From Rahnella aquatilis CIP 78.65 = ATCC 33071 (GTDB lineage: Bacteria; Pseudomonadota; Gammaproteobacteria; Enterobacterales; Enterobacteriaceae): a stretch of 64,000 nucleotides of DNA. The first letter of the stretch is position 1; each line of letters opens with the position of its first letter. Below, piece after piece: positions 21,591 through 55,481 of the stretch. Location of the stretch: positions 3,100,001 to 3,164,000 of the forward strand of contig NC_016818.1 of the NCBI RefSeq assembly GCF_000241955.1. The letters are read 5' to 3'. The translations under genes and the position numbers were made by a program. The notes under the pieces were generated by a model. That model saw nothing but the letters and a program-made list of their open reading frames with translations. It was not told the origin of the DNA and made no database searches.

Positions 21591-22073
21591 TTTCCTTTCC
21601 TTATCGTTGTGGCGGAGCCTTAACGTTACAACGCTATTTATCAGGCTGCAAATGAGAATCAAACGCTTTAACCATCACATTCAAGACGATAGCGGAAAGT
21701 TTTATTTCCATTTCCTCCCCCTCTTGTGATGGCGTAACGTGGGTAGTATTGCGCGCCGGGATAGAATAAATGTGTATTTTTATTTTCAGGTTATTCATTG
21801 CAATATGATTATCCTTGGGCATAAAAATACGATTAGGAAGCATATTAATATTTCCCTACCATTAAGCAATATCGATACTTTCAACACACAAAAACTCAAC
21901 GTGAATTTCACTTTTATAAATAAATCAATAAACAGCTCAAGATATAAATTTTAAGGCCGATAGTGAGATTAATAAAATATAAATCAGCTCATTCAACTGA
22001 TTTGTAAGTTATAGAAAAATATCCGAAGCCTATTCAGGGCGCATTTATCGTTTAGACACATAAGGATTATAAA
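21591..22073. other. AT-rich divergent region between adhP and chemoreceptor
   Basis: 483 bases, strongly AT-rich near the chemoreceptor, containing both promoters. Open frames here are short and have no family resemblance. AAGGATTATAAAGTG gives the chemoreceptor ribosome-binding site and GTG start. No recognised operator. Confidence 0.5.
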
Positions 22074-23729
22074 GTGAGATTTATACGAGATGTTAAAATA
22101 CGAACAGCATTAATAACCATTCTCATCACTTTTTCACTTTTGTGGGCCGGTGTATCAGGTTTTGCCTTATACTCACTTAACCAATTGAAAAGTGAACTTA
22201 ATTTCACCAATATTCAACAGCAAAACGGTGACATTATTAATGGTGCTAATGCACAGTATTACCGTGCAGTAACGGCACTGGAACGTGCCATGGCTGGTTT
22301 AGAAAAAAATGACAACGGCATTTATGATGTTGAAATAAAAGCCACACTGATCGAATTAGAAAGCCTAAGGAAAGGGCTTGATCAATTTAAAAGCATTAAT
22401 CACGGCAATCTGGACTCAAATACAATCGGGGATATCTATAACAGTTCTTTTACGCTTTTCAACAGTGCTCTGGTCCCGATGTATGAATCAGCAACGGGAA
22501 AAAATATAAGTGTTTTCGAATCATTAAAAAATGATAAATATCTTCCACTTAGACGTAACTTTAGTGCAGCCATAGAGAAATATAATGAAAAAATCATCTC
22601 TCTTAACGCCGAAGCGAATCACAGAATTACCCAGTGGGTTGCATGGTGCCAATATATACTTATAGGGGCTATGGCCTTCAGCATTGTCATTATGCTTATG
22701 AGTGATCGTTATCTGGCAAACTTTCTTGTTAACCCCTTAAACAAAGTAAAGGCTCACCTTGAATCACTGGCAACAGGCATACTTGACAGCAAAATCTCTT
22801 ATCACAGCCAAAATTGCATTGGACAATTAATCCCTTATATCAACAAGATGCAAGATAACTGGGCCAAAACAGTCTACGACATCCGAAACAGCGCCGATTC
22901 AATTTACAAAGGCTCCAGTGAAATCTCCACCGGAAATACCGATCTTTCCTCCCGGACTGAAGAGCAGGCCTCTGCACTTGAAGAAACAGCCGCAAGCATG
23001 GAACAACTGAGTTCAACCGTCCGCCATAACGCAGATAATGCGAGTCAGGCCAGTACCCTGGCAGAACAGGCAACGCTGGAGGCAAACCAGGGTGGGGTTA
23101 TTGTTAACGATGTAATATCTACCATGGTAAAGATTAACGCCAGCTCACATAAAATCGTAGAAATAATAAGTGTTATCAACGGAATAGCATTTCAAACCAA
23201 CATTCTTGCCCTCAATGCCGCTGTCGAAGCTGCACGGGCCGGAGAGCAAGGTCGGGGATTTGCCGTCGTTGCCAGTGAAGTAAGAAACCTGGCGCAGCGC
23301 AGCGGACAAGCCGCAAAAGAGATTGGTGTGCTCATTAATGAATCGGTTGAGAATATTCAGTCAGGGTCAGCGCAAGTGACTCAGGCCGGGGGAGCAATGG
23401 AGAAAATCGTCAGCTCAGTCAGCCGTGTAAATGACATCATGAGCGAGATAGCGGCTGCATCGACTGAACAAAGCAAAGGGATAAACCAAATTGGTATAGC
23501 GGTAGTTCAGATGGACAGTGTTACGCAGCAAAATGCCGCATTAGTGCAGCAATCAGCCGCCGCCGCCGCCTCACTTGAAGAGCAAGCACGTCAGCTAACA
23601 GAAATTGTCTCCGTGTTTAAAATCGAAGGCAAGGCTCCCCTTTCTTCATCGGCTCCTCTTCTCAAAAGTAAAATACAAAAAAATAGCGGAGTTTTAACCG
23701 CAGAACATAGCGGTTGGACAAAGTTCTGA
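22074..23729 (+). CDS. Methyl-accepting chemotaxis protein
   Basis: 551 residues, GTG start with AAGGA upstream. TM1 is at ~13-33, the periplasmic four-helix-bundle ligand domain at ~35-190, TM2 at ~192-212 ([15 protein letters not shown]), HAMP to ~265 and the signalling domain after that. The hairpin tip is intact: [38 protein letters not shown]. It relays ligand state to CheA/CheW. It lacks the C-terminal NWETF-type pentapeptide that tethers CheR/CheB. The ligand is unknown. The coding sequence is visibly AT-richer than its neighbours, especially in the ligand domain, suggesting acquisition. Confidence 0.93.
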
Positions 23730-23734
23730 TATTG

Positions 23735-23764
23735 CAGCCCTTCCCGGCATGATGAGAAGGGCTG
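23735..23764 (+). terminator. Stem-loop after chemoreceptor gene
   Basis: CAGCCCTTC and GAAGGGCTG form a 9-bp stem just after the stop codon; the T-tract is poor (GTTCGT), so termination may be partial. Confidence 0.55.
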
Positions 23765-24108
23765 GTTCGTCATTGGCGGTTGCACAATGTGATGGCGTTG
23801 AATCTTGAAGTTTTGCTGTCAGATATAAGCAATGACGGAACGGAGAGTGATGACCAGAAACAGGAAAAAACTCTACATCAGACAGCATTAAAAATACTAA
23901 TTGCTGATATTTTCACTTAACAACGTGTTTATATCCAATAAGTTGTGTGTTTTTTTATGTTCAAACATTGCTTAATGTAACATCGCTATTATCCTTAAAA
24001 CGTGTCATCAAAAGATTAATCCGCAGTCGTTATGCCACAAGTGAGGTATATCGCATGCGGATTAATGTATATGCCCCACCCGGGATGATTACTTTTTGAG
24101 GATAAGGA
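23765..24108. other. Intergenic region before alkyl sulfatase
   Basis: About 340 bases with no gene seen. It is AT-rich around 23880-24000, a likely promoter zone. TTGAGGATAAGGA supplies the ribosome-binding site for ATG 24109. Confidence 0.45.
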
Positions 24109-26088
24109 ATGAAGCTTAAACTGATAGTCAAAAGCCTTGCTCTGGCAGGGTTACTTTCATCAACCAGCCTCACACCGCTATTTGCACAAGAGGCGCCAAA
24201 GGATGCTACTGCGGCGACCAAACAAGCTAATGACGCACTTTATAATCAACTTCCTTTCTCCGATAACACCGATTTTACCAACGCCCATAAAGGATTCATC
24301 GCCGCAATACCGGCAGATGTGATCAAAGGGTCGCAGGGGAATGTTGTCTGGGATCCACAGAAATATGCCTTCATCAAAGAAGGTGACAAGGCACCGGAAA
24401 GTGTCAACCCAAGCCTTTGGCGGCAGTCGCAATTAATTAATATCAGCGGCCTCTTTGAAGTAACCGACGGGGTTTATCAGATCCGTAATCTTGATCTTTC
24501 CAACATGACCATTATTGAGGGGAAAGAAGGAATTACGGTAGTTGACCCGTTAGTCTCGGCGGAAACCGCGAAAGTGGGTATGGATTTGTACTATAAAAAC
24601 CGCGGGCAAAAACCTGTTGTCGCGGTGATTTATACCCACAGTCACGTTGACCATTATGGCGGCGTGCGGGGTGTAGTCGACGAAGCGGATGTGAAATCCG
24701 GTAAGGTAAAAATTTATGCGCCGGCCGGATTCATGGATGAAGCGGTATCCGAGAATATCATGGCGGGTAATGTCATGAGCCGCCGTGCCAGTTACATGTA
24801 CGGGAATCTGCTGAAGCCGGACGCGAAAGGTCAGGTAGGCGCGGGACTGGGTACCACCACATCGGCGGGTACAGTGACATTAATCGCGCCGACCAACTAC
24901 ATCACGAAAACCGGTCAGAAAGAGACAATTGATGGCCTGACGTACGATTTCATGATGGCACCGGGTTCTGAAGCACCTTCCGAAATGTTGTGGTATATCG
25001 AAGAGAAAAAACTCATCGAAGCGGCAGAAGATATCACGCATACCCTGCATAACACGTACTCGTTACGTGGCGCAAAAATTCGCGACCCGCTGGCCTGGTC
25101 AAAATACATTAACGATGCAATTAACCGCTGGGGTGATAAAGCAGAAATCATCATGGCGCAGCACCACTGGCCGACGTGGGGTAAAGATAACGTTGTCAAT
25201 CTGATGAAAAGTCAGCGCGATATGTACCGCTATATCAATGATCAGACACTGCGCCTGGCGAATACCGGTCTGACACGTGATGAAATAGCCGCAAACTTTA
25301 AATTACCGGACGGTCTGGCTAAAACCTGGGCAAGTCGTGGTTATTACGGTTCTGTAAGCCATGATGTAAAAGCCACCTATGTGCTTTATCTCGGCTGGTT
25401 TGACGGCAACCCGGCAACATTAGATGAACTTCCACCTGAGGAAGCAGCGAAAAAGTTTGTCGATTATATGGGCGGTGCGGATAACATCCTGAAAAAAGCC
25501 AGAGAGGATTACGATCAGGGGAATTACCGGTGGGTCGCGCAGGTGGTGAGCAAAGTTGTCTTTGCTGATCCGAAAAATGAGGTTGCGCGTAACCTCGAAG
25601 CTGATGCCTTGGAGCAACTGGGCTATCAGGCCGAATCAGGACCATGGCGTAATTTCTATCTGACCGGCGCGCAGGAATTACGTAATGGCGTACAGAAACT
25701 GCCAACACCTAATACCGCCAGCCCGGATACGGTAAAAGCCATGTCTCCGGAAATGTTCTTTGATTATCTGGGCGTACATATCAATGGTGAAAAAGCGGCG
25801 AATGCAAAAGCAGTGTTCAACGTTGATCTGGGCAGTGATGGCGGCAAGTACAAGCTGGAACTGGAAAACGGCGTGCTCAATCATACCGCTGACGCTGAGG
25901 CGAAAGATGCCGATGCCACTATTGTCCTGAACCGTGACACCCTTAACAAAATCATCCTCAAGGAAGAAACACTGAAACAAGCTGAAGATAAAGGCGATGT
26001 GAAAGTGACCGGCAACGGTGCGAAGCTGGATGAAATGTTGGGTTATATGGATAAATTTGAGTTCTGGTTCAATATCGTCACGCCATAA
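24109..26088 (+). CDS. Periplasmic alkyl sulfatase (SdsA/YjcS-type, metallo-beta-lactamase fold)
   Basis: 659 residues. The signal peptide (SLALAGLLSSTSLTPLFAQE) is cut near residue 27. The metallo-beta-lactamase domain spans ~110-420 with YTHSHVDHYGG (H177, H179, D181, H182) for the two-zinc site and ITHTLHNTYSLRGA downstream. The middle helical dimerisation domain (LPPEEAAKKFVDYMGG) and the C-terminal SCP2-like domain (LGVHINGEKA..., DATIVLNRDTL) complete the SdsA1 architecture. The family hydrolyses linear alkyl sulfates such as SDS to alcohol and sulfate. An outer-membrane-type protein follows 54 bases downstream. Confidence 0.92.
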   Translation: MKLKLIVKSLALAGLLSSTSLTPLFAQEAPKDATAATKQANDALYNQLPFSDNTDFTNAHKGFIAAIPADVIKGSQGNVVWDPQKYAFIKEGDKAPESVNPSLWRQSQLINISGLFEVTDGVYQIRNLDLSNMTIIEGKEGITVVDPLVSAETAKVGMDLYYKNRGQKPVVAVIYTHSHVDHYGGVRGVVDEADVKSGKVKIYAPAGFMDEAVSENIMAGNVMSRRASYMYGNLLKPDAKGQVGAGLGTTTSAGTVTLIAPTNYITKTGQKETIDGLTYDFMMAPGSEAPSEMLWYIEEKKLIEAAEDITHTLHNTYSLRGAKIRDPLAWSKYINDAINRWGDKAEIIMAQHHWPTWGKDNVVNLMKSQRDMYRYINDQTLRLANTGLTRDEIAANFKLPDGLAKTWASRGYYGSVSHDVKATYVLYLGWFDGNPATLDELPPEEAAKKFVDYMGGADNILKKAREDYDQGNYRWVAQVVSKVVFADPKNEVARNLEADALEQLGYQAESGPWRNFYLTGAQELRNGVQKLPTPNTASPDTVKAMSPEMFFDYLGVHINGEKAANAKAVFNVDLGSDGGKYKLELENGVLNHTADAEAKDADATIVLNRDTLNKIILKEETLKQAEDKGDVKVTGNGAKLDEMLGYMDKFEFWFNIVTP

Positions 26089-26092
26089 ATAA

Positions 26093-26126
26093 AATCCCCC
26101 TGCGGTGTTTTCATCACAGGGGGATT
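26093..26126 (+). terminator. Terminator between sulfatase and outer-membrane protein genes
   Basis: AATCCCCCTG and CAGGGGGATT form a 10-bp stem 4 bases after the sulfatase stop. It has only a short T-poor tail, so some read-through into the next gene is plausible. Confidence 0.6.
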
Positions 26127-26142
26127 CAATTCAGGTGATCCT

Positions 26143-26931
26143 ATGCGTCGGATATTTACACTATTACCCTCACTTTTAAGCCTCGTTTCAGGTTATGCCG
26201 TGGCGGCTGAACAATATGCACCGGATGCTGCACAGGCGAATAACCCGCTGGCCAATATGACTGCATTCAATATGCAGAACTATTATATCGGCGACGTCAG
26301 CGGAACGGATAAAGATGCCAACCAGTTCTGGTTTCGTTATGCCCAGCCGTTTTCATTGGGTGAAAGTAACTGGCTTCTGCGAGGCTCTTTACCCATAAAC
26401 ACCTACCCATCACCTCCCTCTGGCGGGCATAAAACCGGCACAGGTGATCTTAACCTTTTCGCTTCATGGCTGATTGATACCGGCAACCCTGCTGTCAGCT
26501 TTGGCTTTGGTCCGCAAATCACGGCCCCCACAGCAAGCGATAATTCATTGGGCACAGAAAAATGGTCAGCGGGTTTGGTCAACGTATTGTTTGATGCGAG
26601 TTCACCAAAATTTCAATATGGGTACCTTGCGTCCTGGCAGCACAGTTTTGCCGGAAAAGATGATCGCAACGATGTTCATCTCGGCACATTCCAGCCATTT
26701 CTCTTCTATCAGTTAGGAGGCGGTACTTACCTTCGTGCGGCACCTATATGGGTTTATAACTTCCAGAATGACAGTTATAGCGTCCCCATGGGACTTGGGA
26801 TTGGGCAGGTCATCAAGCAGGAAAAAACCGTCTACAACTTCTTTATCGAACCACAAGGCTCGGTGGCAGATCACGGACCCGGTCAACCCAAATGGCAGAT
26901 TTTTGCCGGGCTGAATCTGCAGTTTCTCTAA
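26143..26931 (+). CDS. Outer-membrane beta-barrel protein, unknown substrate
   Basis: 262 residues with a signal peptide ([18 protein letters not shown]). The mature sequence alternates polar and aromatic/hydrophobic residues in ~10-residue strands ([64 protein letters not shown]) and ends in an aromatic/aliphatic strand, as outer-membrane barrels do. It resembles proteins annotated as 'neuromedin U'-like or transporters, whose function is untested. Adjacent to the alkyl sulfatase on the same strand; it could let surfactants or products cross, which is inference. Confidence 0.65.
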
Positions 26932-26953
26932 TTTAGTCAGATAACTAAAACAT

Positions 26954-27000
26954 AAGGGGAATGGTTGCCATGCTAACGCAGGTGCAGCGTTCCCCTTTCT
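26954..27000 (+). terminator. Terminator after outer-membrane protein gene
   Basis: AAGGGGAA and TTCCCCTT form an 8-bp stem around a long loop containing a nested gcca..tgcta region, with TCTTATT following. Confidence 0.55.
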
Positions 27001-27048
27001 TATTGCTGTTTTATAGCCGGTAATATTCGCAGCCTTAATAAGCAGAAT

Positions 27049-27116
27049 GGTAACAGGAAGAGATTTAGATGATTGTTTTAAAGGCAGCTTATTGATTTAA
27101 GAAATGTTCAAAAAAA
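27049..27116. repeat. Left direct repeat (attL-like) of decayed element
   Basis: ggtaacaggaag... to the A-run matches 29771-29838 over about 68 bases with roughly eight or nine mismatches. The last 28 bases (ttattgatttaagaaatg ttcaaaaaaa, 27089-27116) are identical. This copy is not joined to an sdsR sequence, unlike the right copy, so it is the distal end created by integration. Confidence 0.8.
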
Positions 27117-27255
27117 GCAAACACTTCCTCAACCTATTAAAATCAGTAAGTTAATTCATTAATTGGCGACAAAATGGCGGTGACTTACTCCTCAAGGATC
27201 CGCGTGCTCTGATTTAGTCATAATTTAATGTGCTTATTCATAAAGAGGGAGTGCC

Positions 27256-27750
27256 TCAGTCGAGCGTTTGGTCGTTCATTGATGCCGGATCTTCCAATGG
27301 TAGGTGGTGAGCATCTGCCTCAAGCGTGATCGAATTGTGCTGCTTGCCAGCCCTTAACAATATCCGTGCCGTCACAAAATTAAGAACGGATGCAACCACA
27401 GAAACCAGTAATCCGACACCAATCGCGTCGAGCGGCTGCGGGATCAACATACGTTCTACTGCGGTATAGGCAATACTGACTGCAGCCAGGAGGATCAAGA
27501 ACCCCTCAAAAGCGCTCGAAAAATATTCGGCTTTACCGTGTCCATATGCGTACTTATCGTCGGCCGGAAGTGCAGCCAGGGTCAGCATCCAGAGCGCCAT
27601 TAGGGCTCCCGCGAGGTTGACCACGGATTCGATGGCATCAGACAGCAGACCGACCGAACCGGTCATTTTCCACGCCACACCTTTTAGTCCGATGGTGGCA
27701 ATAGCCGTGGCAATGGACAGCCAGGCGTAGCGCGTAAGCAATGGAGGCAA
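27256..27750 (-). pseudogene. Truncated cation diffusion facilitator (FieF-like) transporter
   Basis: 164 codons match the N-terminal half of CDF metal-proton antiporters: [20 protein letters not shown] (metal site D), [31 protein letters not shown] (second site half), then helices 3-4 and [11 protein letters not shown]. Family members are ~300 aa and continue with the TDVWTS helix 5, helix 6 and a cytosolic domain. Here the frame ends after an unrelated tail [14 protein letters not shown]. With only TTG (27750) available as a start and half the metal site missing, it is almost certainly non-functional. Confidence 0.8.
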
Positions 27751-27817
27751 CGATTTGTTTTTAATAATTATTTTTCCCTATAATGAACGGCGAATTCAAT
27801 TATTATCACACCAAAAA

Positions 27818-28390
27818 TTAATCAACTAAGTTAGGTGTGCGATTTTTATATGCTTCAATTAAAAGATGCAAAACTCCCATTGCACCATGTGCATAAAAAT
27901 AGATCTCAATGAAAGTTGTAAGGAATTTATGCCAGTGAATGATTGTTTCAGCCATATTTGAATGCATGGTGTCTAATAAGAACCATAGGCCACCTGAAAG
28001 TGCTACAATTAGCAACGCCAGAACTCCAAACCCTTGGATTGTACTCGCAACCCCCCCAGAATGAGCATCGGGCAGGCGAAAGCGGGTCAGCGTTTTTAGG
28101 TCTTGTTTAATACCACTAAAATCAAGCGTTGCCCATGAAAAGTAATAAGAAAAACCTCTCTGAGTCAACATCCAACATAACATTAGAATACCACATATAA
28201 TTAGGCCAAATCCTGAAATAATATGCATCCAGGTTATAACTCCTTCAAGACTATGTTCAGCAATTGCTTCAGTCTCTGTCAGATTAGAGTTAATAATTTG
28301 TGAAAGTATTAAAAATGCCACAATGATGTGAAGAATACGAAAAAAAGGAGCGTATTCATGGGGCAATAGATTCCAGAGTCGAGATTTCAT
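27818..28390 (-). CDS. Membrane cytochrome b (b561/hydrogenase-type, four helices)
   Basis: 190 residues from ATG 28390, chosen for its CTAAGGACTCATTAATG ribosome-binding site; a longer frame to 28429 lacks one. Four hydrophobic helices (FFRILHIIVAFLILSQI, WMHIISGFGLIICGILML, GFGVLALLIVALSGGLWFL, FIEIYFYAHGAMGVLHLL) carry histidines placed like the haem ligands of cytochrome b561/NiFe-hydrogenase b subunits (RILHI, WMHI, HWHKF, YAHGAMG). It would pass electrons in the inner membrane; no partner catalytic subunit is next to it. It lies inside the repeat-bounded element and is AT-rich. Confidence 0.75.
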   Translation of the reverse strand: MKSRLWNLLPHEYAPFFRILHIIVAFLILSQIINSNLTETEAIAEHSLEGVITWMHIISGFGLIICGILMLCWMLTQRGFSYYFSWATLDFSGIKQDLKTLTRFRLPDAHSGGVASTIQGFGVLALLIVALSGGLWFLLDTMHSNMAETIIHWHKFLTTFIEIYFYAHGAMGVLHLLIEAYKNRTPNLVD

Positions 28391-28904
28391 TAATGAGTCC
28401 TTAGCATGTTTATCGATATCCTGAATCATACAAAAGAATTATTAGCATAACCTTAATTCTGAAAATTACAGCAGACATTAACGCACTACATGATAATGAC
28501 ACTCAGGAAATAGGAATGATAACTATTATTATGATTTATTCTCTTTCTGTTCTTATTACTCAGTGGAGCCCTTATATACAATAATTTCAAAAAGATGATA
28601 TCTTCTGGAATGTAAACACCCACGAAATATCCTTACTTATTTTTAATTACCCAAATATTTTAAGAATATTATCCGCTCTCACTCACATTAAGCGATGAAT
28701 AAACAATATCCTGTCATTTGCATTAAAATAAAAACTTCTCCATTAAACTGCACTTCTATATGGCATTTCTTAATATAACTGCCAGACGTAAATTACGAAG
28801 TGACCGAGGATGATGGTCCCCAGACAACATTAGAGTTACAGCAATCAGGTATGTTCAATTCCATCGTAAGACCCGGGATTGAACATGCCTGCGGATAGGG
28901 GAAA
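28391..28904. other. AT-rich non-coding stretch inside the element
   Basis: 514 bases with no gene seen. A long inverted repeat at 28848-28893 (aggtatgttcaat / attgaacatgcct) sits just 3' of the acetyltransferase and may terminate it on the minus strand, though no T-run follows. Confidence 0.45.
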
Positions 28905-29318
28905 TTAAAGGATCTTTTTCATTGAAGGTGAAGTGTGGAAAATGAAATCATTCCTTTCATAAAAGGGAATTGCTTCTTTTCTTGCATCAAGAAAAACAAA
29001 ATTCATCTCCCTGCTTTTAGCCTCGCTGACAGCGAAATCAAGAAGTAACCTACCCGTTCCCGAATGACGCTCATGCTCATCAACGACCAGATCATCAATA
29101 TGCAGGTGAGAACCTCGTGCCAGCGTGTGTACAGGCCTGATCCCCATCACACCGATAATTCTTTCTTCGAGAACAGCGGCAACAAGCTCATACCCATTCA
29201 GAGTCTGAACTCTTACGCTTTTTAAAAATTCGCCTTTGGTGATATTTCTTAGCTGAGCAATGATCGGGAATGCGCTTTCCCACTCTGAAGGAAGTAATTT
29301 TTTAATCAGAACAGTCAT
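28905..29318 (-). CDS. GNAT-family N-acetyltransferase
   Basis: 137 residues. LHIDDLVVDEHERHSGTGRL contains the beta4 strand and the R-x-x-G-x-G acetyl-CoA pyrophosphate loop. FVFLDARKEAIPFYERNDFI is the C-terminal acceptor region (Y near PFYERNDF). It transfers acetyl from acetyl-CoA to an unknown amine. It is intact and lies within the direct-repeat-bounded element as possible cargo. Confidence 0.85.
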   Translation of the reverse strand: MTVLIKKLLPSEWESAFPIIAQLRNITKGEFLKSVRVQTLNGYELVAAVLEERIIGVMGIRPVHTLARGSHLHIDDLVVDEHERHSGTGRLLLDFAVSEAKSREMNFVFLDARKEAIPFYERNDFIFHTSPSMKKIL

Positions 29319-29594
29319 AAAACATCCAATTCAATAAGCTGAGTTATTATTTATAGGATTGTTATTATTACGTTGCAACGTAAATCACTTTAATTCTACA
29401 TGTATGTTTTTCACCATAACATACAATGATCATATTTGATTAAAAAATGACCAAATTGTGATTGTTATGATGCATTGCCCGAAATGCTAAGACGCAGCAC
29501 ACATCCGTTCCAGCTGTTATCTGAGCATTAATACCGCGGACCATCACCAGTGTCAGAACATTAATTGCAGTTGTACGTTCAAAACGCATGAGTC
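29319..29594. other. Non-coding remnant before integrase fragment
   Basis: 276 bases, AT-rich at left. No gene recognised. The region 29480-29590 has ordinary composition but no frame continuous with the integrase fragment that follows; an in-frame TGA at 29589-29591 marks the break. Confidence 0.4.
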
Positions 29595-29759
29595 CATTTC
29601 ATGATGACCGGTGGCAATATCATCGTGTTGCAGCGCATCCTCGGGCACTCAGATACCCGCGTCACAATGCGCTATGCACACTTCGCCCCTGATCACTTAG
29701 AAGACGCTATTTACCTGAATCCGCTGGCTCAAATGGGTGGCGGCAGAAAGTCCAAATGA
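29595..29759 (+). pseudogene. C-terminal fragment of a phage tyrosine integrase
   Basis: 54 codons reading HFMMTGGNIIVLQRILGHSD, TRVTMRYAHFAPDHLEDAIY and LNPLAQMGGGRKSK-stop. These are the box II region of P2/P4-type integrases: the LGHSD motif (second catalytic His) and MRYAHFAPDHL with the nucleophilic Tyr. All upstream domains and the first catalytic Arg are missing, so it is inactive. It ends 11 bases before the right direct repeat, the usual place for an integrase at its own attachment site. Confidence 0.9.
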
Positions 29760-29770
29760 GTAGCATTGGA

Positions 29771-29838
29771 GGTAACAGGAAGTGATGTAAGTGATTGTTT
29801 TAAAGATAAGTTATTGATTTAAGAAATGTTCAAAAAAA
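29771..29838. repeat. Right direct repeat (attR-like), abutting sdsR terminator
   Basis: Partner of 27049-27116. The identical 28-base core is 29811-29838, and its A-run is the complement of the sdsR terminator U-tract. The attachment core is thus the sequence immediately at and 3' of the sRNA gene, so integration leaves sdsR intact. Confidence 0.8.
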
Positions 29839-29935
29839 AGACCGAATACGATTCCTATATTCGGTCTAGGGAAATGGCTCTTGGGAGAGAGCCGTGCGCT
29901 AAAAGTTGGCATTAATGCAGGCGGTTAAGCCGTAC
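29832..29935 (-). ncRNA. sdsR: Small regulatory RNA SdsR (RyeB)
   Basis: Read on the minus strand: GTACGGCTTAACCGCC, CTGCATTAATGCCAACTTTT, AGCGCACGGCTCTCTCCCAA, GAGCCATTTCCCTAGACCGA, then ATATAGGAATCGTATTCGGT and a U-run. It aligns nearly base for base with E. coli SdsR and gives the same 104-nt length. SdsR is a sigma-S-dependent, Hfq-binding sRNA that accumulates in stationary phase, represses outer-membrane and mismatch-repair (mutS) mRNAs, and pairs with the antisense RNA SraC/RyeA. CTACTC at 29944-29949 (minus) is a candidate -10. It lies next to yebY as in E. coli. Confidence 0.93.
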
Positions 29936-53941: not shown

Positions 53942-53958
53942 GCCTGAACGGCTGACAC

Positions 53959-53986
53959 AAAAAAACCCGCCTTGGCGGGTTTTTTT
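53959..53986. terminator. Bidirectional terminator between PgeF-like gene and cspC
   Basis: aaacccgcc-tt-ggcgggttt with long A- and T-runs on either side. Confidence 0.92.
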
Positions 53987-54000
53987 ACAGCTAACGCTGC

Positions 54001-54210
54001 TTAGATTGCAGTTACGTTAACTGCTGACGGGCCTTTCTGGCCGTCCTGGATTTCGAACTCTACGTTCTGGCCTTCAGCCAGAGTTTTGAAGCCGTTACCC
54101 TGGATTGCAGAGAAGTGTACGAACACGTCTTTGCTGCCGTCAGCAGGAGTAATGAAACCGAAACCTTTAGACTCGTTGAACCACTTAACTTGACCTTTGA
54201 TCTTTGCCAT
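54001..54210 (-). CDS. cspC: Cold-shock-family protein CspC
   Basis: 69 residues, differing from E. coli CspC by about one residue ([12 protein letters not shown]). RNP1 (KGFGFI) and RNP2 (DVFVHF) bind single-stranded RNA. CspC is constitutive, antiterminates transcription and stabilises rpoS mRNA. AAGGAAATACTCAAG precedes the start. The small yobF gene lies 41 bases upstream on the same strand, as in E. coli. Confidence 0.97.
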
Positions 54211-54251
54211 CTTGAGTATTTCCTTTGGATTGTTTAAACCGCCCAGCGGCG

Positions 54252-54368
54252 TTACATAGACAAACTAGAGTCGTTACTGCTTGAGGCACTAAGATTAAAA
54301 TCGGCAGAGAAGCGGTATTCAACGTGAACGTCTTTACTCAGAACTTCTATACTGAAAATGCCACACAT
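54252..54368 (-). CDS. yobF: Small stress-induced protein YobF (DUF2527)
   Basis: 38 residues: [20 protein letters not shown] then [22 protein letters not shown]. The first ~20 residues match E. coli YobF (MCGIFSKEVLSK.VDVEYRF), and its place immediately upstream of cspC is conserved. E. coli YobF is 47 aa and is induced by stress; this version is shorter with a Ser-rich tail. Too short to be found by length-filtered gene calling. Confidence 0.9.
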
Positions 54369-55481
54369 ATACAGAACTGTACCTCGTTTTACCCAGATGC
54401 GTTATCACATACTCTGAATTCGATGGCAAGCCATTTTTAATCAGTGATGGACATGTCGCACATATTTGAGCCGGTTAAAGGCACTTCGTGTTCAGGTAAG
54501 CTGAAATATGTTGATAGACATGCTTTTTTCTGCTTTGCAGTTTTACCTGCATATCAAACAAAACAATAACGACCTGTTTCGATTATTGATCATTTAATGC
54601 AGAACCGTAAGCGTAAAACACACCTTTATTTGAATTTTTATTGCCAGCGCTCACCAAAACACTTCCCCGCAGAGTGCACCCGGCATCGCGTCACAGGCCT
54701 TACCGTATGGGATTGCGTCGGTGACAGCGCGTCACGCGGCGCTTGCGGATACGTGTGTATCAGCACGGGCCTGGACAGAAAGTCTCTGTCTGTCCCTGTG
54801 ACTGGTTATGCAATAATCAATTACGCCATAGACGGATAAAATGGTGCAAAACAAACAGTGAAAATCAATAAATGCACCTTAAGTGTGCGCCTGTACTTTC
54901 TGCCAGAAAATAGCCAGACCAGACAAACTTCAGTCAAAATGAATTCCAAACCACGACATGTTGTAACGGTGATTTTTTATCGTGGCGATTTTGACATTAT
55001 AATGAATTAATGTTTGCGACTTGGTTAAAACAACATAACAGTTTGCAAACACACACAGCAGGCTTATTCAAATATTAAATATGGATATGAAAAAGTAATA
55101 TTAATTACCGTGATCTAAATCCCATATCAACTTTCTCTCCCTGCTCAGATTGTCTCATTACCCGCCCGCAGGCAACCGCAATAGTATGGCAGACAGCTCG
55201 CCGGGGTTGCAGATACGCGAAACGAAGTCAACCCACTGTTTAGCAAAACAAAAATCCATTTTTCCTGACAAAAAGAAGTTTCTGAGTGTCTCACCAGGAA
55301 ATATTCTGTTTTGATAAAGACGCTTTGGGAAGATAAATAATCTACCGGAACATGAGAATTAACATTCACATAACACCTACTGAATGTAAGTGTTATGCAA
55401 AACTTTATTTAACTGATAATACTTCTCATTCGATAACTCAAATGTTTGCTTACATATCCCCGATTACGGTGGAAATCATAT
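54369..55481. other. 1.1-kb region without a recognised gene
   Basis: From the yobF promoter to the 3' end of the metallo-hydrolase gene. Open frames of 74-80 codons exist (54597-54839 plus, 55145-55369 minus), but they lack good ribosome-binding sites, family resemblance and protein-like composition. 54900-55140 is AT-rich. I see no tRNA, sRNA terminator or insertion sequence end here. Confidence 0.5.

Follow-up and report, generated by a model that had tools for sequence, protein, structure and literature searches.

Why do two long direct repeats bound 2.7 kb of DNA beside the small RNA gene sdsR (ryeB) in Rahnella aquatilis, and what entered there? We analysed a 64,000-nt stretch of the chromosome containing this locus (hereafter the window; Table 1). 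Insertion at ryeA/ryeB is known from Salmonella enterica, where the locus is a hot spot described for phiW104 (Balbontin et al. 2008, as related in the accessible part of the review PMC7380047). According to the same part of that review, phiW104 inserts within the last ~23 bp of ryeB/sdsR and changes the 5′ portion of ryeA, and lysogeny lowers ryeA transcription and raises that of ryeB, effects that would fit loss of the RyeA promoter side. A first-pass annotation of the Rahnella locus had pointed to this hot spot and had read the repeats as the attachment core of a single decayed element. We consider it highly probable that two or more P2-like prophages instead entered one after another at the 3′ end of sdsR and were then largely deleted, and that the window holds their stacked scar.

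The anatomy of the locus largely agrees with the first reading. Both 68-nt repeats lie exactly where they had been placed, are 88% identical to one another and agree in their final 28 bases. A search of the whole 5.45-Mb genome with the right repeat returned, self aside, the left copy (E 4.4e-18) and a single weak 37-nt match. The integrase stub was likewise correctly recognized as P2-type; over 51 aa it matches a congener's complete P2-type tyrosine integrase at 86% identity, and the full-length relative carries PF24624 and PF00589. Directly upstream lies a broken late-activator gene whose congener counterpart is PF04606 (Ogr_Delta), fused to integrase residue ~294 at points that are 1.1–2.0 kb apart in congeners. 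Pfam searches of the ORFs of 27190–29380 gave no tail, capsid, repressor or replication genes, and the window element is a remnant rather than a working phage, with its ends alone kept. The full-length Rfam match confirms that sdsR was left intact beside this decayed element, as at the Salmonella hot spot; the window has no tRNA genes. Elsewhere in it, a cspA thermoregulator RNA lies at 53957–54374 on the minus strand (RF01766, 147 bits).

Table 1. Features of the sdsR locus, in window coordinates
Feature	Position	Strand	Evidence or comment
Accessory DNA left of the older junction	21710..27048	.	Absent from congener G010; common to G001
ORF, presumably MCP-like	22074-23729	+	In accessory DNA
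Alkyl sulfatase	24109-26088	+	Pfam
ORF without Pfam match	26143-26931	+	
Left repeat, read as P arm (right end) of older P2-type element plus A-run	27049..27116	+	Same arm 3′ of int in congeners
Decayed 18-bp core, AAAAAAAGCAAACAC against AAAAAAAAGACCGAATAC (AAAAAAACAACCAAACAC in G001)	27110..27124	+	Alignment of ten junctions
P′ arm (left end) of younger P2-like element	~27117..27180	+	Aligned with congener left-end sites
Cation-efflux gene, ~0.4 kb internal loss relative to G001	27256..27750	-	PF01545
Cytochrome b561-type gene	27818..28429	-	PF01292
GNAT acetyltransferase gene	28905..29318	-	PF00583
ogr (late activator) remnant, first ~50 of 77 codons	29455..29601	+	tblastn 78% over 50 aa, E 1e-22
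P2-type integrase C-terminal stub, from ~residue 294 of 352	29595..29759	+	PHROG integrase families, best 1.1e-15
Right repeat, read as younger element's P arm running into sdsR U-tract	29771..29838	+	Sequence comparison, congeners
RyeA (SraC) antisense RNA region; DNA 5′ of RyeA is phage arm	29829..29974	+	RF00101, 138.5 bits
Predicted attachment core AAAAAAAAGACCGAATAC, 3′ arm of sdsR terminator stem plus U-tract	29832..29849	+	Common to both ends of congener prophages
sdsR (ryeB) sRNA gene, complete	29833..29932	-	Rfam RF00111, 110 bits, positions 1-100 of 100

Comparison with congeners changed the interpretation of the repeats. As the first-pass annotation had anticipated, relatives carry full integrases that stop at this position: in five congeners (G002, G003, G006, G011 and G012; loci L031, L032, L034, L041 and L042) the end of a complete 352-aa P2-type integrase lies 76 bp short of the final A in the sdsR A-run, and the P arm between int and A-run contains two TAAGTnnTTGnTTT-like repeats. 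Both prophage ends lie on one contig, 34–37 kb apart, in G006, G009 and G011, and from this spacing between the ends, the parts that were read, the congener prophages are apparently full-length. Left-end sites L033, L035, L037 and L040 (L033, from G002, being on a different contig from sdsR) have the 18 bp AAAAAAAAGACCGAATAC in common with attR and then continue into divergent P′ arms. On this comparison, the 68-bp repeat is best read not as an attachment core but as the phage arm 3′ of the integrase gene plus the sdsR U-tract, with an 18-bp core common to the element ends. The core may be longer than 18 bp, given ~25 nt to its left that are also alike at both ends in Rahnella prophages. As predicted, it overlaps the sdsR 3′ end, in keeping with a crossover in the last ~23 bp.

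The left repeat then reads as a junction between two elements. Left and right attachment arms surround one core, as in P2-like prophages, although the left core is decayed; it is full-length with four changes in G001 and has lost three bases in the window. Positions 27071–27179 find a match at 77% (E 1.6e-16) in L045, where R. rivi has a tandem junction. The earlier alternative, one 2.7-kb element inserted once through a 68-bp core, would account for two 68-bp copies (88% identical) that flank the stretch and each end in an A-run, but we think it unlikely: the first ~50 bp of the repeat are phage arm between int and core in congeners, the left-end sites L037 and L040 are without most of those ~50 bp, and tandem junctions in R. 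rivi and others keep the order arm, core, P′. That the repeats instead arose by local duplication, or through recombination of related prophage ends with no further site-specific insertion, seems very improbable, since a P′ arm follows the left copy, as integration predicts, and in G001 this junction is paired with another right end, even if homologous arms 2.7 kb apart can recombine and integrase C-terminal duplications sit beside attR in L038 and L044.

The accessory region is also larger than the 2.7 kb first proposed. In G010 the alcohol-dehydrogenase side (window 21709; a gene that we take to be adhP) reaches an integrase scar after 48 bp, and the window stretch from 21.71 to 29.83 kb (~8.1 kb) is therefore accessory. 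Close copies of the cation-efflux gene occur in only two of 14 genomes (G000 and G001). The alkyl sulfatase protein is 97–99% identical in five congeners: G001 has the gene at this locus, and G004, G007, G010 and G012 have it on contigs other than that of sdsR; sdsR-region DNA is 81–94% alike and, as far as a protein and a DNA measure can be compared, this gene is perhaps mobile.

Stacking is also seen in relatives. Junctions composed of the right arm of one element, a core and the left arm of the next are present in G000, G001, G002, G007, G008 (twice) and G011. R. rivi (G008) retains three generations: a P2-type scar, a P2-type element extending to 89.7 kb and a lambda-type element extending to sdsR at 131.2 kb. 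The left junction of the window recurs in G001, together with its cation-efflux gene and some of the b561 gene, and there the right end is a lambda-type integrase scar. No integrase remnant of an older element was found in front of the left repeat. Extra genes also occur near the attachment site. L038 (10261-11974) and L044 (2078-4980) each hold an additional gene, HNH endonuclease-type in L038, which is flanked on one side by a full integrase and on the other, at attR, by a duplicate of the integrase C-terminus; this is a cargo slot next to the attachment site. In R. rivi, two ORFs (488 and 356 aa; L047:8915-11453) without a Pfam or PADLOC match separate the lambda-type integrase from its arm at sdsR.

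Elements in tRNA 3′ ends provide a familiar parallel: their core spans the 3′ terminus of an RNA gene, integration restores that gene, and they accrete in tandem. The sdsR site resembles them in each of these respects; here, in contrast, the target is an sRNA, and insertion replaces the promoter side of its antisense partner. On our reading, the sdsR 3′ end is a chromosomal attachment site at which a P2-type tyrosine integrase would recombine the phage at the ~18-bp core of terminator 3′ arm and U-tract. Each insertion would rebuild the terminator and leave sdsR whole, and a later phage would enter at the core kept beside sdsR, displacing the older element outward. In this Rahnella lineage, the older P2-type element would have been cut down to the right arm now at 27049–27116. 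A younger element would have entered between that arm and sdsR, acquired or retained the cation-efflux, b561 and GNAT genes, and later been deleted to little more than its left arm, the ogr remnant and the integrase C-terminus.

How general is occupation of this site? We sampled 14 Rahnella genomes, one per species and all with an sdsR–yebY match. Using tblastn, a P2-type integrase end was found at sdsR in eight and a lambda-type integrase in two; a further two (G010 and G013) have a P2-type arm recognized by pattern only, one (G008) has a lambda-type integrase 2.85 kb from sdsR behind two ORFs, and one (G004) has a P2-type scar assigned by eye only. Counting the genome assigned by eye, the site looks occupied in 14/14; such a locus is ordinary in the genus. 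The expectation that element-free strains would carry one 28-bp copy beside sdsR was not borne out: there is no unoccupied site (empty attB) among the 14 genomes, and relatives occupied by lambda-type elements lack the 28-mer there.

A family survey detected sdsR in 180 of 295 genomes, covering 88 of 154 genera. We then took a wider, non-random sample of 60 genomes, one per genus and mostly from the better-scoring survey rows. A lambda-type integrase C-terminus, whole or as a scar, lies 67–142 bp from the A-run end in 29/60 genera (four of these calls, L201, L208, L221 and L237, at E 0.001–0.003), P2-type arms are present in 2/60, and neither kind of end was found in 29/60. Within this sample, the site looks occupied in 31 of 60 non-Rahnella genera. 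In E. coli, at least 80% of the 120-bp junction was recovered in one place in 5,141 of 5,426 genomes, part only in 234, and no match in 51. The one interrupted locus inspected, PV0838, has phage genes beside a broken sdsR match; in another E. coli case, from a longer query, IS1 lies outside the 120 bp.

The integrases at this site belong to dedicated groups, delimited by identity cut-offs (71% for P2-type, 49% for lambda-type) that were set after the lists were seen. Among the P2-type matches listed, 12 reach at least 71%: six lie within 110 bp of sdsR (G002, G142, G177, G233, G247 and G261), three lie 1.9–42 kb off on its 3′ side (G005, G008 and G301), and three (G033, G052 and G241) are on another contig or have no listed sdsR place. 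We also took in 27 of 30 named loci, leaving out the most distant (L113–L115); several come from the same genomes as the G set. For the 19 rows at or above 71% integrase identity, some of them partial genes, the core follows within 115 bp after int in 18 (17 by BLAST, L099 by pattern), and in the other, L090, sdsR lies 1.9 kb on, behind an extra gene. Of the eight rows at 59% or below, only L111 shows sdsR, 1.2 kb further on. Viral contigs (80 kept from 118) have the core right after int in 67 cases; of the other 13, five end there, one has a core with a one-base change, and seven have an altered integrase end (L128, L133, L135, L136, L174, L192 and L193).

Phylogenetic analysis of 43 integrases (37 different) placed 32 sdsR rows in one clade (support 100/99) beside PSP3-type phages with another target. 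This clade comprises 30 rows labelled sdsR plus L090 and L091, both sdsR cases automatically labelled 'other', and under these automatic labels the program counted three target changes rather than one. Record titles assign its members to Rahnella, Pectobacterium, Serratia, 'Martelella alba', Rouxiella, Winslowiella, Pantoea (MAG), Erwinia, Mixta and Yersinia. The first-pass description of Rahnella as an independent instance of the Salmonella hot spot understates the case: the integrase belongs to an sdsR-specific clade of ten named genera. Lambda-type matches at 49% or above behave similarly, with 17 of the 20 listed no more than 140 bp from sdsR, that of G008 at 2.9 kb and two elsewhere (G174 and a second copy in G187). 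These proteins have a lambda arm-binding domain and an Exc-type neighbour, and PF00589 is common to both integrase types. Overall, two distantly related integrase clades appear to use the site, and their close members are located almost only at sdsR.

In the portion of PMC6610125 available to us, changing the K-12 ryeA −10 element to CTCGAG abolished RyeA. The wild-type K-12 letters there are TATGGT, preceded by TGT (L256). The pattern TGnTATRRn faces sdsR at −110 to −40 in 18/31 lambda-type, 16/31 other and 0/13 P2-type loci, rows that share ancestry. It never occurs on the reverse strand of the same region (shuffle means 0.6–0.7), and control windows further left gave 1, 0, 7 and 1 of 75. 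Across a wider P2-type set, the box was present in two of 65 distinct junctions drawn from 84 of 87 rows (L090, L145 and L149 being without the pattern); both, L091 and L141, have TGTTATAGG. Around lambda-type integrase stops, with L391 left out, it occurs at 8/16 sdsR-adjacent genes versus 0/13 at other sites (Fisher 0.003), most of the 16 being from genomes of the −110 to −40 count. This lambda-type box, in or after the integrase gene end, is an extended −10, often TGTTATGGT, which contains TATGGT. Host lineage is confounded in the contrast because Rahnella loci with lambda-type elements (L028, L029 and L047) are also without the box. A generic sigma70 matrix directed toward sdsR gave, at 0.05, 0/13 P2-type, 0/31 lambda-type and 3/31 other loci, nothing above shuffles. 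For a possible origin of the K-12 ryeA promoter from an integrase scar, a profile search gave only E 0.2, and we do not claim it.

These counts hint that many lambda-type elements bring a ryeA-like promoter box to the junction, whereas P2-type elements, that of the window included, mostly do not. A more speculative and rather doubtful proposal is that mobile elements compete over the toxin-antitoxin-like SdsR/RyeA pair: a lambda-type insertion would supply a new RyeA promoter and a P2-type insertion mostly none, so that lysogeny or a scar would leave SdsR without antisense control. Against this, half of the sdsR-adjacent lambda-type genes are without the box, and it is present at 16 loci where no integrase was detected.

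Relative to known systems, the locus shares with the Salmonella hot spot insertion at the sdsR 3′ end and a changed ryeA 5′ side. It differs in extending to Rahnella and many other genera, in involving P2-type and lambda-type clades, in its stacked or decayed copies, and in being known from sequence alone. Its P2-type integrase (62–63% to those of PSP3, SEN1 and SW9) and ogr gene resemble those of P2-like prophages (Peduoviridae, PSP3-type Eganvirus); in contrast, the sdsR integrases form a separate clade, the window keeps only ends, and none of the PSP3-type phages looked at has the sdsR core after int. In PSP3-type phages (L257:43-381 and L258:43-381) the gene adjoining int is annotated as DUF2511 (YebY family) in phage Midge. 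Capture of yebY from the sdsR site by these phages was rejected, as gp28 is only 30–32% like host YebY, the product of sdsR's neighbour gene. A prophage named Cfr111.52.RyeB, presumably of Citrobacter, is mentioned in the accessible part of PMC10111431. Apart from it, the Salmonella work and its citations, the accessible parts of PMC6610125, PMC5495878, PMC5575072 and PMC7577506 contained no mention of insertion at sdsR. Among the literature matches listed, to the extent of their accessible text, there was no prior report of the breadth of the site, its two dedicated clades, stacking or the promoter-box contrast.

What is interesting here is how broadly the site is used and how the element types differ in the promoter box. 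A site reported from Salmonella is widened to a phage landing site across enteric genera, apparently used by two distantly related integrase clades, with the shared core placed on the terminator 3′ arm and U-tract and with stacking and decay in evidence. Phage arms can form long direct repeats at such scars and be mistaken for attachment cores, which calls for caution in reading them. Whether prophages decide how a regulatory sRNA and its antisense partner are balanced can be tested directly with this arrangement.
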